From NCBI GenBank assembly GCA_020425605.1, contig JAGQRH010000015.1, positions 1 to 64,000 on the forward strand: a stretch of DNA of 64,000 nucleotides, read 5' to 3'. Below, piece after piece: positions 26,803-39,373 of the stretch. The position numbers and the translations under genes were made by a program. The DNA comes from Planctomycetota bacterium (GTDB taxonomy: Bacteria; Planctomycetota; UBA8742; UBA2392). Each line of letters opens with the position of its first letter. The stretch's first letter is position 1. The notes under the pieces were generated by a model. That model was not told the DNA's origin. It saw nothing but the letters and a program-made list of their open reading frames with translations, and made no database searches.

Positions 26803-29058
26803 CTATTCAGCCCGCTCAACGCTGATGACCTCGTAGGCCACCGAACCCTCTGGGGTCTCGACCATGGCCTTTTCGCCGGGCTTCTTGCCGAGAATGCCCT
26901 GCGCGATCGGGCTCTCGTTGCTGATGATGAAGTTCTCGTGGTCGGCCTCATAGCGGCCCAGGATCGTGTAGTTCTTGGCCTTGCCGTCCTCACGCTTGAG
27001 GCTGACCTTGGTGCCGAAGCCGGCGACGCTGGCGTCGACCGTGGCCGGATCGATCACCTTCACGCGCTTCAGCTCGTCCATGATCTCCTTGGCGGCTTCC
27101 TTCAGGCGGCTTTCACGCTCACGTGCCGCATCCAGCTCGGCATTTTCGGACACGTCGCCCATGGCCAGCGCTTCGCCGATCTGCTTGGCAACGTCCGGCA
27201 GCTCTTCTTCCTGGATGTTTTTGAGCTCGGCCTGGCGTTTGCGCAAGCCGCGCTCGGTGGCCAGGATTTCGCCGCTTCCGTCCTCGTCATGCATGTCCGC
27301 AGCGGTGAGTGCGGCCTTTGCCTGGAGTGCCGGAAAGGCCTTCATGAGCAGCTCACGCAAGGTTGACTGGTGTATGTCGCTCAAGCCGCGGCAGCGCTCC
27401 ACCTCGTGCAGCAAGTGTGCAGCGCGATCTTCACTGAGACCGTCCATCGCCGTGGTCAGCAAGCGCGAGCTACGCTCGGTCATTGCCGCACGCAGGCTGG
27501 CCAGTACTTCCTTAAGCTGGTTCTCGCCGCGCTCAATGCGCGTCAGCACCTTGTTAATGGTCCAGAGCAGCTTGCTGAACAACTCGTTTGCGGGTGCTAC
27601 TTCAAAGCCCTGCGGCAGGTCAGAGCCGAGGATACCACGGCGCGAAACCCAAAGCGTCTGAAGGGGGTACTTCTCGCCATCTGCGTTCACCGCATCGAGC
27701 GCCTTGCGCAGCTCTGCGTGGTGATCGGCATCCATCAACTTCTTAGCGATGTAATCCCACAGGCTGGGCACGTCCTTCAGGAATGCCTGACCAAAGGTCT
27801 TGGCCCATGCATCTTCGTTCAGCTTGAGGTTGCGCTCAAGACTGCGCTGCTGGTAGTCCGCGTCTCGTACGTCCTCAATGCGGCTGAGTACGTCTTCACT
27901 GGCTCGCACCAGTTCGTCGACGTCGTACGGCAGCTCAACTTCGACTTCCTTCTCGGCCTTGCGCAGGTCATCAATGAGGAACGAAACGACAATGCGGTCG
28001 CCGGCCAGCGTGCCGCCTGAGCGCCTGCGCTCATCGAGGTCGCCGTCTCCGCCGACGGATTCCTTCAATTCGTTGGCGACATACTGCAGCAGGTCCTTGC
28101 GCGCCTCGCCCTTTTCGGAATCGCGGATGTAGCGACGCAGCAGGTCGAGCTTGTTGAACAAGTGGATGGCGTTGTCAAAGCGCTCGCGGGTTTCGTCCTC
28201 GAACGTCATGGCAGTGACCAGCCGGTCGATTGTCGGGTTCGTACCCGTGCCCAGTTTGATGTACTGGTGCTGCGCGAGTTCCTTGCGCGTGCCGGTCCAC
28301 CACTTGGCCCAGCTCTTGCTTTCGATTACTGCAGGTACCAGTTCGGCCTTGATGCGCTTGAGGTTGCTCTTGTTGTTGTGGGCCTTGAGCACCGTGAGGA
28401 TCACGCTAACGGGGTCGTCCTTGCAGCGCTGCTTGAGCTCATCCATGTGGGCGGCGCGCAGCACCATGATGTCGTCTTCGCCAAGCTTGCGGAAGAATTT
28501 GGCAGCCGCGCCCAGCTTCACCTTGTGGTCTTCCTTGCTCTGGAAGTCGATCTTGAGTTCGCCGGCTTCGGCGTCGATTTCTTTCACTTCACCGAGGCCC
28601 CAACCGGCGTCGTGGAACACCCAGTCGCCGGGCTGGAACATCAGCTGGCTCCAGAGCTCCCGGACGAACTTGTTGTCGCTGCCCTTGGCCGCTTCTTCTG
28701 CCCGCTCGACGCAATTGGCGTACCCCGCCAAGTCGCCGTAGGCATTGCCGAACACGGTCTCAGCCAGTGCCTTCTGGTTCGGGTTGCGCGGAGCGACTCG
28801 GGCCAGCTCCCCCAGAACGGTCGCAGCCTTCTTGTGTTCGCCCAGTTCATCGAGCTTGTTAACCACCTGCTCAAGGAGGTTGCCGGCCTTCTCGCCGTGT
28901 CCGGCCTTGGCGAGCTTGTCGGCAAGTGAAAGGAAGGTGTCGATCTCGGTCGGCGCTTTTTCGAGAGCCTCCGTCCACACCGTCTCGACTTCGCCGAGTT
29001 GTTCCTTCTTGATCAGTTCGGTAATGCGTGCAGTCTCTTTATTCAGGCTGGTAACCAT
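26803..29058 (-). CDS. greA: Transcript-cleavage factor GreA with large N-terminal extension
   Basis: 751 residues against about 158 for an ordinary GreA. The last ~150 residues are a full GreA module: a coiled coil with MGDVSENAELDAARE (the acidic tip residues Asp and Glu that hold the catalytic Mg are present), then the FKBP-like domain ending VETPEGSVAYEVISVE. The first ~600 residues are helical, TPR-like at the start (AGNLLEQVVNKLDELGEHKKAATVL). A segment QLMFQPGDWVFHDAGWGLGEVKEIDAE resembles a CarD/Tudor-like fold. Chlamydial GreA has the same kind of long fusion. GreA rescues backtracked RNA polymerase. The ATG at 29058 is used; an upstream TTG at 29097 is unsupported. Confidence 0.88.
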   Translation of the reverse strand: MVTSLNKETARITELIKKEQLGEVETVWTEALEKAPTEIDTFLSLADKLAKAGHGEKAGNLLEQVVNKLDELGEHKKAATVLGELARVAPRNPNQKALAETVFGNAYGDLAGYANCVERAEEAAKGSDNKFVRELWSQLMFQPGDWVFHDAGWGLGEVKEIDAEAGELKIDFQSKEDHKVKLGAAAKFFRKLGEDDIMVLRAAHMDELKQRCKDDPVSVILTVLKAHNNKSNLKRIKAELVPAVIESKSWAKWWTGTRKELAQHQYIKLGTGTNPTIDRLVTAMTFEDETRERFDNAIHLFNKLDLLRRYIRDSEKGEARKDLLQYVANELKESVGGDGDLDERRRSGGTLAGDRIVVSFLIDDLRKAEKEVEVELPYDVDELVRASEDVLSRIEDVRDADYQQRSLERNLKLNEDAWAKTFGQAFLKDVPSLWDYIAKKLMDADHHAELRKALDAVNADGEKYPLQTLWVSRRGILGSDLPQGFEVAPANELFSKLLWTINKVLTRIERGENQLKEVLASLRAAMTERSSRLLTTAMDGLSEDRAAHLLHEVERCRGLSDIHQSTLRELLMKAFPALQAKAALTAADMHDEDGSGEILATERGLRKRQAELKNIQEEELPDVAKQIGEALAMGDVSENAELDAARERESRLKEAAKEIMDELKRVKVIDPATVDASVAGFGTKVSLKREDGKAKNYTILGRYEADHENFIISNESPIAQGILGKKPGEKAMVETPEGSVAYEVISVERAE

Positions 29059-29102
29059 GGCCGCGATGCTTTCTCGAAATCCGTCAGAGACAATCAAAGT
29101 CG

Positions 29103-29133
29103 AAAAAATAGGCGTCGACTATGTGGTCGACGC
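29103..29133 (-). terminator. Intrinsic terminator of the two-component operon
   Basis: GCGTCGAC (29112-29119) and GTCGACGC (29126-29133) form a perfect 8-bp stem with a 6-base loop. On the minus strand this is followed by CCTATTTTTTCG. It lies 33 bases after the response regulator stop. Confidence 0.75.
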
Positions 29134-29165
29134 TCAACCGCTTATAGGGCGTGGGTCCGGCACGG

Positions 29166-29600
29166 TCAAGCAACCGAATGGTTAGGCAACGTTGCCACGT
29201 CCAGCCAGAAGTGCTTGAGCGCACGAATTGCCTCGCGCAACTCCGTCAGGCTGCCGGGCTTGCGTACGTAGCCGTTCACTCCGTGGCGATAGGCTTCCTG
29301 CACATCCCGAGGCAATTCCGATGACGTAAACGCCACGACCGGCATGTTGCTCAGTCGCGAGTCCCTGCGCATCTGAACAAGAACTTCCAGCCCTCCCATA
29401 CGCGGCATCTTCAGGTCCAGCAGTACCAGTCCCGGAAGCCTGCGAGCCGGGTCACGGAGTCTTGTCAGCAGCTGCCTGCCGTCACTGCAAAACTCCATTT
29501 CGCCCCTGAAGCCCGAGTCGGTGAGGGCCTGGCGCAGGATCAGCTGATCGTCCAAGTCATCCTCGGCGATCATCAGCAGCGTTGCATCTTCGGTCTTCAT
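29166..29600 (-). CDS. Single-domain response regulator (Rcp1-like)
   Basis: 144 residues consisting only of a CheY-like receiver. The acidic pocket is EDD (13-15), the phosphoacceptor is Asp62 (LVLLDLKMPRMGG), Thr/Ser occur in VVAFTSSE and Lys in YVRKPGS. The 'EDDxDDQ' start and roughly 140-residue length match the Rcp1-type regulators that pair with phytochrome-like kinases. Its ATG overlaps the kinase stop (ATGA, 29597-29600), so the two are translationally coupled and the kinase at 29597-30856 is its expected partner. There is no output domain, so it probably acts by protein contact or in a phosphorelay. Confidence 0.88.
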   Translation of the reverse strand: MKTEDATLLMIAEDDLDDQLILRQALTDSGFRGEMEFCSDGRQLLTRLRDPARRLPGLVLLDLKMPRMGGLEVLVQMRRDSRLSNMPVVAFTSSELPRDVQEAYRHGVNGYVRKPGSLTELREAIRALKHFWLDVATLPNHSVA

Positions 29601-30856
29601 GATGGGCTCTCCGTTTTTGGCAGCGTGAACCGAAAAGTGGCACCCTCACCCGGGCGCCCCTCTGCGACAATGGTTCCGTTGTGCCGCTCAAGGATTCTCT
29701 TGCAGACCGTCAGGCCTACGCCGGTGCCTGCATATTGCTCACGCGTGTGCAGACGCTGGAACGGCTTGAAAATCTGCTCTGCATACTCCTGCTCGAAGCC
29801 GATTCCGTTGTCCTCATACGTGACCTCTACTCTGCCGAGGCCGGTGTCGTGCGCGCGGATCGAAATCCGCAGGGGCACACCCGATCTGCGGTACTTCACC
29901 GAATTGCTCAGCAGATTGAGAAACACCTGCCGGATCGCAATCGGCGCGACATGTACGGTGGGCAAGTCTTCTGCGTTGATCACAGCCTGGGCCTCCCCCA
30001 GGCTGGTTTCCACGTCTTCCCGGGCCTGTGCCAGTACCAGGTTCAAGTCCAGGTCCATTCGACCCTCGGACCTCTTCGACGCGCGCGACAGTTGCAACAG
30101 ATCGTTGATCATCACGCTCATGCGCACCGCCGCGCTGCGCATTCGCAGCAAGTAGTCCTTGCCGGGATCTTCCAGGCGCTCGCCGAGGGTCTCTTGCAGC
30201 ATTTCACTGAAGGCGCGCACCTTTCGCAGCGGCTCCTGAAGATCGTGCGACGCAACGTAGGCGAACTCTTCCATTTCGGTATTTGCAGCCTCGAGCTCAC
30301 GAGTCTTCTTGCGCAGTCGCAGCTCGATTTCTTCGCCCTTCTTCAACGCGGCCTTCAGCCGGTCATTGGTTTCGGAAAGCACGCGAGTGCGTTCGGCCAC
30401 ACGACTCTCGAGTTTGTCATGTGCCGCACGCAACGCTTCTTCTGCCTGCTTGCGCTGCTCTACTTCCTTCTCCAAGGCCTCTGGACTGCGCATGGAAAGG
30501 AAACGCGGCAGGACCGGCACCATGGCGATAACGGTCAACCAGGACGCCACTGCCGTTACACCCAGTACCGCGCCGGACAGGCGATACATCGGGTCATAGA
30601 AAGTGAACACGTCGAGAAGATGTGTGAAACCGCAACTCACGATGAAGAAGACGAACAGCCAGATAATCCCCCGATGCGGGAAATCCGGGCGTTTGCGCCC
30701 AACATAGAACAGACCGAGCGGGATCGCCATGTAGGCCAGCCAGATCAGAGTGTCCGAGGTAACCGTGAGCCAGATCAGCCCTTCTGACCAGCCGCCGCAC
30801 TGAGGCCGCGGAACAAATGGTTCTGAGTCAAGCAACCAGTCCAACCAGTCAAGCAT
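29597..30856 (-). CDS. Histidine kinase with ethylene-receptor-type membrane sensor domain
   Basis: 419 residues. The ATG at 30856 follows GAGG. Three membrane helices (~28-50, 62-85, 92-118) align with the ethylene-binding domain of plant ETR1 at a constant offset of +10. Asp35, Ala41, Tyr42, Pro46, Ile72, Cys75 and His79 correspond to ETR1 Asp25, Ala31, Tyr32, Pro36, Ile62, Cys65 and His69. Cys75 and His79 would be the copper ligands (SCGFTHLLDVFTF). A coiled coil follows (~125-195), then HisKA with FAYVASHDLQEPLRKV and a HATPase with NLLSNSVKYRR, DNGIGF and GTGVGLTVC. There is no GAF domain, unlike ETR1. Copper and ethylene binding is inferred from the residues; other small ligands are possible. 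Confidence 0.88.
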   Translation of the reverse strand: MLDWLDWLLDSEPFVPRPQCGGWSEGLIWLTVTSDTLIWLAYMAIPLGLFYVGRKRPDFPHRGIIWLFVFFIVSCGFTHLLDVFTFYDPMYRLSGAVLGVTAVASWLTVIAMVPVLPRFLSMRSPEALEKEVEQRKQAEEALRAAHDKLESRVAERTRVLSETNDRLKAALKKGEEIELRLRKKTRELEAANTEMEEFAYVASHDLQEPLRKVRAFSEMLQETLGERLEDPGKDYLLRMRSAAVRMSVMINDLLQLSRASKRSEGRMDLDLNLVLAQAREDVETSLGEAQAVINAEDLPTVHVAPIAIRQVFLNLLSNSVKYRRSGVPLRISIRAHDTGLGRVEVTYEDNGIGFEQEYAEQIFKPFQRLHTREQYAGTGVGLTVCKRILERHNGTIVAEGRPGEGATFRFTLPKTESPS

Positions 30857-31051: not shown

Positions 31052-31978
31052 ATGGTCGCAGCTCTCGATCACCCACCAACCGACATTGAGACTTCCGCCC
31101 TGCGTATTTTGCTGGTGGAAGACGATGTTGAGGACGTCAGCATCTTCGAACACCTTGTCGGCAAGCTGCCGGATTACCGTGTTGACCTGACCACAACGCG
31201 CGACTTCGACTCTGCGCGCGACCTGCTGCGCAACCGGCGATTTGACGTGCATTTCATCGATTATCGACTTGGAATCCGCAGCGGGCTGGACCTGATGAGC
31301 GAATCCTTGCGAGAAGACCCCTGCAAGGCATTCGTGGTAGTAACAGGCGTCGGAGATGAAGAACTCGCGGCCCGAAGCATCCAGCGCGGCGCGATTGACT
31401 ACATCTCAAAGGACAAATTGAACGCCCAGCAGTTGGAGCGCTGCATCACCCACTGCGTCACCGAGGGCAAGCAACGGACCGAACAACTACGCCGCCTGGC
31501 TGAAGCCCATTTCGACGGGCTGACCGGTGTCTACCGCCGCGAAGCCTATCTAAGCCTGGCGCGACAGTTGATTGTCGCCGGAAGCAGCAACGTACAGAAC
31601 TGGGCCGTGCTGCATGTAGACGTCGATGAGCTGGCTGGAATCAATTCCGATCTTGGGTTTGCGGAAGGCGACAATAGTCTGCGCGCTGTCGCAAAAACCC
31701 TGCGGGGTGGCATCGGCCCTGACGACCTGCTCGGGCGCATTGAAGACGACGGCTTTTGCGTGCTTACTCGCGTTGCCAACGGCAACGCGGCCAAGACCTT
31801 GGCAGAACAACTGCGCAAGCTGATCGACGATACTCTTGAGGTAAGCGTCAGCATCGGAGTTTGCGTCGAGAAAGCCCCGCTGGCCATGCTGAACACTCTA
31901 CTGAGCGGCGCATCCATGGCGCTTCACAAGGCCAAGGTAGCCAGCGGCAACAAAGTGGTCATGTACCAGCCTAATTAG
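31052..31978 (+). CDS. Response regulator with degenerate GGDEF domain
   Basis: 308 residues, preceded by GAGAGGG. Residues ~17-130 are an intact receiver: VEDD (22-25), phosphoacceptor Asp70 (HFIDYRLG) and Lys120. Residues ~150-305 have the GGDEF fold (HFDGLTGVYRREAY, then LHVDVDELAGIN). The active-site motif is EDDGF (231-235) and the usual Lys of DxDxFK is missing. Cyclic-di-GMP synthesis is therefore unlikely; the domain may bind a nucleotide or a partner. It is divergent from the ethylene-receptor-like kinase operon, which it may serve. Its 3' end overlaps the coiled-coil gene by 8 bp. Confidence 0.82.
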   Translation: MVAALDHPPTDIETSALRILLVEDDVEDVSIFEHLVGKLPDYRVDLTTTRDFDSARDLLRNRRFDVHFIDYRLGIRSGLDLMSESLREDPCKAFVVVTGVGDEELAARSIQRGAIDYISKDKLNAQQLERCITHCVTEGKQRTEQLRRLAEAHFDGLTGVYRREAYLSLARQLIVAGSSNVQNWAVLHVDVDELAGINSDLGFAEGDNSLRAVAKTLRGGIGPDDLLGRIEDDGFCVLTRVANGNAAKTLAEQLRKLIDDTLEVSVSIGVCVEKAPLAMLNTLLSGASMALHKAKVASGNKVVMYQPN

Positions 31979-36340: not shown

Positions 36341-37783
36341 CTAGAAGATCCACTGCAGCTGCAGGCGGACGATCCACAGGTCATTGTGGTCGGCCCCTGA
36401 GCCACCCAGCGTGCCGCCGCCGAGAACGCGGTTCGGCAGGCTGTTGTAAACACCGTCAAGGCTGCGTGCGCCCGAGCCGTTGTCCGGACGAAGCGCAAGC
36501 TGCTGGCTGACCATCAGGACGTCAAAAGTCAGCTTCAGGTTGTCGCCCTGCAGGTAGTAGTTGACCGACAGACCAATTTCCGTCGCGTCCGGACGCAGCG
36601 CAAAGGAACGCGGGTTGCCCGCAGCGCTGGTGCCGCCCTGCCAGAAGTCTTCAGCGTTCAGCATGCCGAAGCGGATGCCGACGTTGAACTGCTTCGGAAG
36701 GATAAAGTAGCTGACGTCCACGGTGAAGCCGCTGTCTTCGAGGTTGCCGACGCTTGCCTGGTGGTCAGGGCTGAAGCGGTTGGCACCGCGGTTGTGGAAC
36801 TCGCTGTGGCGCCAGAAGTAGGCGACGTCCAGGCTCAGTCCGTGCCAGCGGAAGTGGCCGTCGATGGTGATGGCCCAGGTGTCCTGGTTGGTGCGGAAAC
36901 GACCCGATGCAGTCGCGGTAGCGACAGTGTCGCCGCGGATACCGGCTTCGTCAGCGTCGTAGCCGCTCGTGAACCAGTTGACCGCAAGGCCGATGGCGAA
37001 CAGCACGGCGTCGTACTCGTCTTCGCCGCGCATGTCGTTGAGGCTGTGCTTGATATCGCCCAACGGGTGCGTCTCAAGACGCAGGTTGAGCATCATTTCG
37101 CCGTCAACGAGGTTGCTGAAGGTGTCACTGACCCGTTTGACGTCCGCGTTGCGGAAATCATCGTTGTCCTTGAGCACGCCGTTGAAGATGCCGATCTCGT
37201 ACTTCAGCCAGGTGATGTCTTCACCGACCTTGCCGTCGATGTTGATGCCCTTGGCGAAGTCCTGGTTGAACACTTCGTTGACGTAGCTGCGGTCAACGAA
37301 CTGCTGGCTGCCCGAGCTGGTCATCTCTTCCCAGTTCCAAGCCAGCTTGAACTGGCCGGCCTTGACGTTGATGTACTGCATCACCGCCCAGCGGAACCAT
37401 GCTTCTTCGACGATCTCGTCACCGCCGCCCGCAAAGGTCAGGGTGACCTTGTACTGGAATTCCTTCTGGAAGATGAAGCCGCTGAATGCGGTCTTGACGC
37501 GGCGAATACGGAAGTTGATGAAGTCCCTGCCGTTCTGTCCGTGTCCGCCGTTTGCTACTTCGTTCTGATACGTAAGACGGAACTGCACGCGTGTGGTCAT
37601 GCGCAGCTCAAACCCGTCCGTCGTAAAGACCAGACCCTTCTTGCCTAGCGTTGCGTCAGCAGCACCTTCACCGCCACTGCGGTGAACCGTGCCCAAGTCA
37701 TCGCTGTCTTGCGCCATCGCCGGCGCAGCCAGCAGCCCGATACCGCAAAGCAATATCAGGGCCATAGCCAGAAACTTACTCAT
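36341..37783 (-). CDS. OprO/P-type outer membrane porin, copy 1
   Basis: 480 residues. The ATG at 37783 follows AAGGAG. The signal peptide is MSKFLAMALILLCGIGLLAAPAMAQ. The mature part is a repeated amphipathic beta-strand protein with the features of phosphate-selective porin O/P (VQFRLTYQNEVANGGHGQNG, FQYKVTLTF, GIFNGVL) and ends in LQLQWIF, with the terminal Phe required for BAM-dependent insertion. Phosphate, pyrophosphate or another anion could be the substrate; selectivity cannot be read. It is closest to copy 3 (39473-40915), sharing length, signal peptide and the GKKGLVFTTDGFELR start. Confidence 0.85.
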   Translation of the reverse strand: MSKFLAMALILLCGIGLLAAPAMAQDSDDLGTVHRSGGEGAADATLGKKGLVFTTDGFELRMTTRVQFRLTYQNEVANGGHGQNGRDFINFRIRRVKTAFSGFIFQKEFQYKVTLTFAGGGDEIVEEAWFRWAVMQYINVKAGQFKLAWNWEEMTSSGSQQFVDRSYVNEVFNQDFAKGINIDGKVGEDITWLKYEIGIFNGVLKDNDDFRNADVKRVSDTFSNLVDGEMMLNLRLETHPLGDIKHSLNDMRGEDEYDAVLFAIGLAVNWFTSGYDADEAGIRGDTVATATASGRFRTNQDTWAITIDGHFRWHGLSLDVAYFWRHSEFHNRGANRFSPDHQASVGNLEDSGFTVDVSYFILPKQFNVGIRFGMLNAEDFWQGGTSAAGNPRSFALRPDATEIGLSVNYYLQGDNLKLTFDVLMVSQQLALRPDNGSGARSLDGVYNSLPNRVLGGGTLGGSGADHNDLWIVRLQLQWIF

Positions 37784-37990
37784 GGAATGCTCTCCTTTTC
37801 CGAATCTCACACTGCCTGCCTGCACAGGAATGGGCAGAAGGTATGGAGTGAGTCGGTGGATACGCAACGGAGACTGTGTGGATTGACTAAACTCGAACGG
37901 CGCGGCAACACGTTCCTCAACCGGCCTTAACAAAAAGCGACAAATCGCCGTCTCTTGGGCCGAAGGACGTCTTGACACGTCAAGCTTTTA

Positions 37991-39373
37991 TCAGAAGATC
38001 CACTGCACCTGAAAACGCACGATCCAGAGTACGTCGTGGTCCGCATTTGCACGGCTTTGGCCCAGCAGCCCGTTGCGGGTCTGCGGGTCATTGTAGACGC
38101 CTGAGAGGTACGGCCCGCCCTTGTAGCTGTAGGCCAGTTGCTGATCTATGTAGACGATATCCAGGCTGAATTTCAGACGCTCACCTTGCAGCAGGTAGCT
38201 GGCATTGAAGCCGTATTCCATGGCGTCCGGGCGAATCGCGCGCTGCTGAAGGTCTGTCTGGCTAAGCGCGGCGTCCGCACCCCAGAACTCGTCTGCGTCC
38301 ACGCTGCTGACGCGGAAGGCCACGTTCAGGTCGATCAGGTGGATGTAGTAAGAGGCTTCAAACGTCCAGCCTGAGTCTTCGAGGTCGCCGATTCCCCGTT
38401 TGTTGCTGTTGTCGAATGCGTTGATTCCCTTGTTGTGGAACTGGGTTGTGCGCCAATAGACGGCCACGTCGACGGCAATGCCGTACCAGCGGAAGTGGCC
38501 ATCCAGGGTGACGGCCAGTGTTTCCTGGCTTACACGCGGGCGGCCAGAGCCTGTGGTCGTGGCACCGCTGTCGTTGCGCAGGTCTGCGTTGTCGACTCGG
38601 CTGAACAGCAGATTCGCGCCGGCGCCGAATGCCAGCAGAAGCTGATCATGCTCGTCTTCTGATCTGCGGTCGCCGAGTCCGTAGTCCATGAGCCCGAATG
38701 GATGAGTCTCAACCCGCGTGTTGAACATCAGCTCGTTGTCGATCAGGGTGCTGAATGAGTCACTCGTCAACGCCCCATCCTTGTTGCGGAAGTCATCCTG
38801 GGCGGCCAGGACGCCGTTGTAGATGCCGAACCAGTACTTCACCCAGGGAACGTCCGTACCGAACTGGCCATCAAGCCAGACTCCCTTGCCGTAGTCCTGG
38901 TTGAAGACCTCGTTGGCGTAGCTGCGTTCCTGAAAGTTCAGGTTAAGCGCGTCAACCTGCTCTTCCCAGTTCCAGCGTACGGCGGCCTGGCCGCCGCTGA
39001 CGTTCAGAAACTGGTGGAAGGCCCAACGCAATTGGGCTACTTCAATCATCTCGCTTGCCGGGCGAGCGAAGTTGAGGCGAACCTGGTACTGAAAGGCCGG
39101 GTCGTAGATATGGCCCTGAAACTCGAGCTTGGCTCGGGCGACCCGGAAGTTGCGGAAATCACGCCCGTTGGACCCGCCCCGCCCTCTCTGGCCGACTTCT
39201 TCCTGGATGGTCAGGCGGAACTGCACGTACGTCTGCACGCGAATCGAGAAGCCTTCGGTCTCGAACTTCAGGCTACGTGCTTCAAGAGTTGTAGTCGTAA
39301 CGGTTTGCGCCGAAAGGGCACCCGCAGAAATCAGAACCAGAAAGCAAGCGATGTTCAGCCCGATACGCGTCAT
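37991..39373 (-). CDS. OprO/P-type outer membrane porin, copy 2 (divergent)
   Basis: 460 residues with AGGGGG before the ATG. The signal peptide is MTRIGLNIACFLVLISAGALSAQ. It is collinear with the two flanking porins (VQFRLTIQEEVG, FQYQVRLNF, FGIYNGVL, ending FQVQWIF) but lacks their acidic N-terminal leader segment and differs at many positions. It is therefore an older duplicate sitting between two more similar copies. It ends 208 bp upstream of copy 1, leaving room for a separate copy 1 promoter. Confidence 0.83.
   Translation of the reverse strand: MTRIGLNIACFLVLISAGALSAQTVTTTTLEARSLKFETEGFSIRVQTYVQFRLTIQEEVGQRGRGGSNGRDFRNFRVARAKLEFQGHIYDPAFQYQVRLNFARPASEMIEVAQLRWAFHQFLNVSGGQAAVRWNWEEQVDALNLNFQERSYANEVFNQDYGKGVWLDGQFGTDVPWVKYWFGIYNGVLAAQDDFRNKDGALTSDSFSTLIDNELMFNTRVETHPFGLMDYGLGDRRSEDEHDQLLLAFGAGANLLFSRVDNADLRNDSGATTTGSGRPRVSQETLAVTLDGHFRWYGIAVDVAVYWRTTQFHNKGINAFDNSNKRGIGDLEDSGWTFEASYYIHLIDLNVAFRVSSVDADEFWGADAALSQTDLQQRAIRPDAMEYGFNASYLLQGERLKFSLDIVYIDQQLAYSYKGGPYLSGVYNDPQTRNGLLGQSRANADHDVLWIVRFQVQWIF

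Follow-up and report, generated by a model that had tools for sequence, protein, structure and literature searches.

We found that a 64,000-nucleotide stretch of the draft genome of a planctomycetote (contig JAGQRH010000015.1; hereafter the window) encodes a sensor histidine kinase with an ETR1_N domain and, overlapping it, a short receiver. We regard these as probably constituting a two-component pair of the ETR1/AzoEtr1 type with ethylene or a similar olefin as its input, an altered coupling of binding to output, and a history as an ancestral cassette that was later lost in several congeners. The sensor retains the usual copper- and ethylene-binding residues, and a leucine takes the place of a conserved lysine, making the protein a natural variant of the very residue by which current models link ethylene binding to signaling. 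The elements of the pair are:

Positions 29597 to 30856, minus strand: sensor histidine kinase of 419 amino acids with the start at 30856 (Pfam, motif check and AlphaFold2).
Positions 30620 to 30754, minus strand: binding residues from D35 (30752-30754) to H79 (30620-30622), including Y42, I45, P46, I72 and C75 (30632-30634), from alignment with ETR1 and homologous domains.
Positions 30563 to 30565, minus strand: Leu98, codon CTG, at the place of ETR1 Lys91 and AzoEtr1 Lys98 in the ungapped alignment of bacterial sequences.
Positions 29166 to 29600, minus strand: stand-alone receiver of 144 amino acids with phospho-acceptor D62 (PF00072, E-value 1.7e-20).

An initial annotation of this DNA had placed a kinase and a receiver here and joined them by an ATGA overlap; both genes are indeed found, and the start of the receiver overlaps the stop of the kinase in this manner at 29597-29600. 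Pfam recovers ETR1_N (PF25487), HisKA and HATPase_c in the kinase, the first with an E-value of 1.5e-33 and 115.3 bits against a curated cut-off of 27, and chance is excluded by a wide margin as the source of this match. The polypeptide runs from a three-helix membrane domain through a coiled-coil-like linker to HisKA and HATPase_c; there is no Pfam match to a PAS domain, and residues 123-194 are free of any Pfam domain. In the AlphaFold2 model residues 1-129 have a mean pLDDT of 95 with helices at 25-55, 62-87 and 91-121, and the ETR1_N domain is accordingly modeled as three membrane helices. Searches for a solved structure homologous to the sensor domain returned none by sequence, and none by fold with an E-value below 0.001. 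The phospho-acceptor histidine is H204, in a motif (SHDLQEPLR) starting at residue 203, and the motif check found the N-, G1- and G2-boxes of the HATPase_c domain all present. The receiver likewise has its motifs intact (the EDD acidic pocket, D62, T92 and K114) and is the single domain of its protein, an output domain being absent. Receivers overlapping, or directly downstream of, an ETR1_N kinase occur at no fewer than eight sampled loci in the phylum.

The alignment places D35, A41, Y42, I45, P46, I72, C75 and H79 of the window kinase opposite ETR1 D25, A31, Y32, I35, P36, I62, C65 and H69, respectively, at a uniform offset of +10. The residue numbers of the ETR1 reference are self-consistent. 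Seven positions at this offset had already been listed in the initial annotation, and the alignment confirms them; that list omitted the I35 equivalent (I45), although I35 is customarily counted among the seven (D25, Y32, I35, P36, I62, C65 and H69). This set is complete in the window kinase, with Ala31 kept besides. Our conservation survey comprised 78 retrieved ETR1_N domains besides that of the window, one of them a fragment, in which the copper-site Cys is kept in 76 and the His in 77. Judged from these sequences, the seven binding residues are the normal state of the ETR1_N family, common to nearly all members examined, and not a special match. The window genome also has two copper-ATPase genes, which are common and only permissive for a sensor with a copper site.

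The departure from the family pattern lies elsewhere in the domain. PMC13012798 describes ETR1 Lys91 as bridging Asp25 and as thought to couple binding to output. Over the 77 other domains, the Lys91 column has K in 69, R in four, D in two, and L and Q in one each; a basic residue (K or R) is thereby present in 73 of the 77, and the window kinase is without one. The bridge is typical of most members but is no criterion of the ETR1_N family. In the other domain with a leucine in this column the Asp is lost as well, making it one of three domains with both equivalents replaced (Asp and Lys being S/D in L115, N/D in L123 and N/L in L128), one further row without the Asp being a frameshifted fragment. 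The loss of D35 accompanies that of K98 with a Fisher p of 6e-4 across 76 distinct sequences including that of the window, a value derived from three cases only; in this sample, Asp and Lys behave as if changing together. The window protein is alone among the surveyed domains in keeping the Asp with an apolar residue for the Lys, and K98L is its sole strong departure among positions conserved at 80% or more.

With the K91 equivalent being Leu98, normal coupling cannot be assumed: the substitution predicts that the coupling of binding to kinase activity is altered, i.e., weakened, locked or rewired. Tentatively, it is conceivable that this is a natural ethylene receptor with a full copper/ethylene pocket in which, the bridging Lys having been replaced, binding is split from, or otherwise coupled to, the kinase output. 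A further proposal is that a receptor with a copper site has acquired a new route of coupling and been retuned to another input, such as CO, a different alkene or Cu(I) itself. The combination of retained binding residues with a vanished D35-K98 bridge, together with the joint change of both bridge partners in other ETR1_N proteins, would be consistent with such retuning; however, nothing positive points to another ligand and the nearest relatives of the window sensor domain keep the lysine, and we consider it quite improbable.

In the two-component reading that we prefer, the three membrane helices would form a dimeric site that binds ethylene or a similar small olefin; in it, C75 and H79 would coordinate Cu(I), and D35 would lie next to them. 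The ligand state would modulate autophosphorylation of H204 and then phosphotransfer to D62 of the overlapping receiver. The replacement by Leu98 of the Lys bridging to D35 would alter the usual link between binding and the kinase, and ethylene control of the kinase may thereby have been lost. As the 144-residue receiver has no output domain, it must act through protein contact. A likely second target would be the product of a divergently oriented gene:

Positions 31052 to 31978, plus strand: receiver-GGDEF protein of 308 amino acids (PF00072 and PF00990; alignment; positional orthologue in a congener).

This gene is a probable further member of the cassette, and its product could be phosphorylated by the kinase. 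Its receiver is intact and its GGDEF signature has degenerated to EDDGF; hence, production of c-di-GMP by this protein is unlikely. The positional orthologue in the congener G003 (L105:3-629) has SYASF at the same site, the motif being lost in both, and the two proteins are 32% identical, as against 86% for the flanking gatA. c-di-GMP synthesis through the divergent gene, a candidate output of the pair, is weakened by this loss. In a different Planctomycetota genome, a gene at L098:2633-4726 (minus strand) fuses ETR1_N to PAS, GGDEF and EAL domains, joining an ethylene-type sensor to c-di-GMP domains.

The corresponding neighborhoods of five congeners (G001-G005) throw light on the history of the cassette. 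None of them yielded an intact sensor gene, the site in G003 falling between contigs. The order gatA, coiled-coil gene, greA is kept in G001, G002, G004 and G005, with about 125 to 340 bases versus 2.9 kb in the window. In G002, G004 and G005 the sites at the cassette position are empty, and the gap in G001 holds a remnant of the receiver that is split over two frames, contains stops and can be aligned on into the greA leader. The G003 contig starts inside the receiver-GGDEF gene, which faces the coiled-coil gene as in the window; the kinase and receiver, if present there, lie in the assembly gap, their retention being unproven. A three-gene tree has the form ((G000,(G002,G003)),(G004,G005)), where G000 is the window genome, with G001 outside. 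From the synteny and the tree we infer, as the simplest reading, that the ancestor of the genus probably carried the cassette and that several congeners lost it, bearing in mind that the basal position of G001 has 66% support and that within the genus the kinase is seen only in the window genome. Elsewhere in the window, two adjacent genes (36341-37978 and 37991-39373, minus strand) cross-match each other in relatives, and the congeners have two to three related copies there.

The same pattern raises the prospect that the window receptor is itself decaying: the genus would no longer need the signal, and the site would still bind copper and perhaps ethylene, but the kinase would be uncoupled from it, under relaxed selection and heading to loss. 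The lack of an intact copy in the five congeners and the stop-ridden remnant in G001 fit such a course, as do the substitution at an otherwise nearly invariant column and the divergence of the receiver-GGDEF protein relative to gatA, its GGDEF signature having gone in the window and in G003 alike. Yet both reading frames of the pair are unbroken and retain every catalytic motif, and K98L stands as the only strong departure from the conserved positions of the domain; on the whole, we see decay as rather unlikely. The occurrence of ETR1_N in just one of the 16 genomes of the family might alternatively point to recent horizontal acquisition or a binning artifact. This is largely refuted and hardly probable at all, given that the flanking genes and their order match those of the congeners, and that the G001 remnant and the G003 receiver-GGDEF gene occur at the same place; we rejected recent transfer and contamination on account of the synteny and the remnant. 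No close relatives of the sensor were found in viral contigs. A weak tblastn match of the sensor domain (E-value 4e-3), which may be due to chance, was seen to a hypothetical protein of the Maribacter phages Molly_1 to Molly_5 at about 37101-37373.

Two further elements lie at the end of the receiver gene:

Positions 29141 to 29169, minus strand: TTGACC-N17-TATAAG, the putative promoter of greA, with a -35 that overlaps the receiver stop codon (conservation of hexamers and spacing).
Positions 29112 to 29133, minus strand: terminator-like hairpin with a T-run in the greA leader (folding z-score -3.4; conservation).

Hairpin and promoter show conservation across six family members, of which five are without an intact pair; in these genomes the hexamers and the 17-base spacing are invariant, and the spacer sequence varies. 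The initial annotation had credited the pair with its own terminator; the hairpin, however, sits behind the greA promoter and is kept with it where the pair is absent, and we rejected that assignment. From this conservation, we favor assigning both elements to greA, one as its promoter and the other as a hairpin in its leader; transcripts reading through from the kinase and receiver would meet the hairpin too. In E. coli, the GraL RNA derives from greA's own leader. Autoregulation of E. coli greA via GraL is described in PMC6829880. By analogy, the region 29056-29169 (minus strand) may mediate attenuation of greA. Taken together, the original view of the locus as an ethylene-receptor-like pair stands, but it had misassigned the terminator and overlooked Leu98, its seven residues are not special, and the rest of the genus yielded no intact copy.

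Discussion of ETR1_N receptors usually centers on cyanobacteria and on proteobacteria associated with plants; our sample adds about a tenth of the Planctomycetota genomes (41 of 392, ~10%). In a second sampled phylum, probably Bacteroidota (the sample being centered on a Flavipsychrobacter MAG), they occur in 18 of 296 genomes (~6%). The genus of the window exemplifies the loss of an ethylene-type receptor with the remnant of its receiver still visible. The window protein and the Asp/Lys double variants, in turn, offer a direct test of the Asp-Lys coupling model.

The reading as an ethylene-receptor-like sensor with a cognate receiver holds, and the pair closely resembles an experimentally studied system, AzoEtr1/AzoRR-Etr1, whose AzoEtr1 from Azospirillum brasilense binds ethylene (PMC11819568). 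There too, the gene for a short stand-alone receiver comes after that for an ETR1_N kinase, stop and start overlapping (Azospirillum locus L109), and D35, C75 and H79 occur at identical numbers; with the same residues, numbering, gene order and overlap, the window pair belongs to an already known kind. AzoEtr1 differs in having a PAS domain and Lys98, of which the window kinase lacks the former and has Leu98 instead of the latter, though PAS is not required of such pairs, as other bacterial members, e.g., L096, also do without it. SynEtr1 (slr1212) of Synechocystis similarly combines an ETR1_N domain bearing the copper Cys with His-to-Asp signaling to a separate response regulator; unlike what we see in the window, it is also light-sensing, and its response regulator activates a small RNA (PMC11819568). 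Arabidopsis ETR1 shares the seven binding residues, but it also contains a GAF domain and a receiver of its own, retains Lys91, and for the most part does not depend on histidine kinase activity for its signaling. The closest sensor domains are those of the Planctomycetota L039 and L023, with 55% and 47% identity, respectively, both of which keep the lysine: L023 is, like the window protein, a short kinase with an adjoining receiver gene, whereas L039 is a hybrid kinase with the receiver fused.
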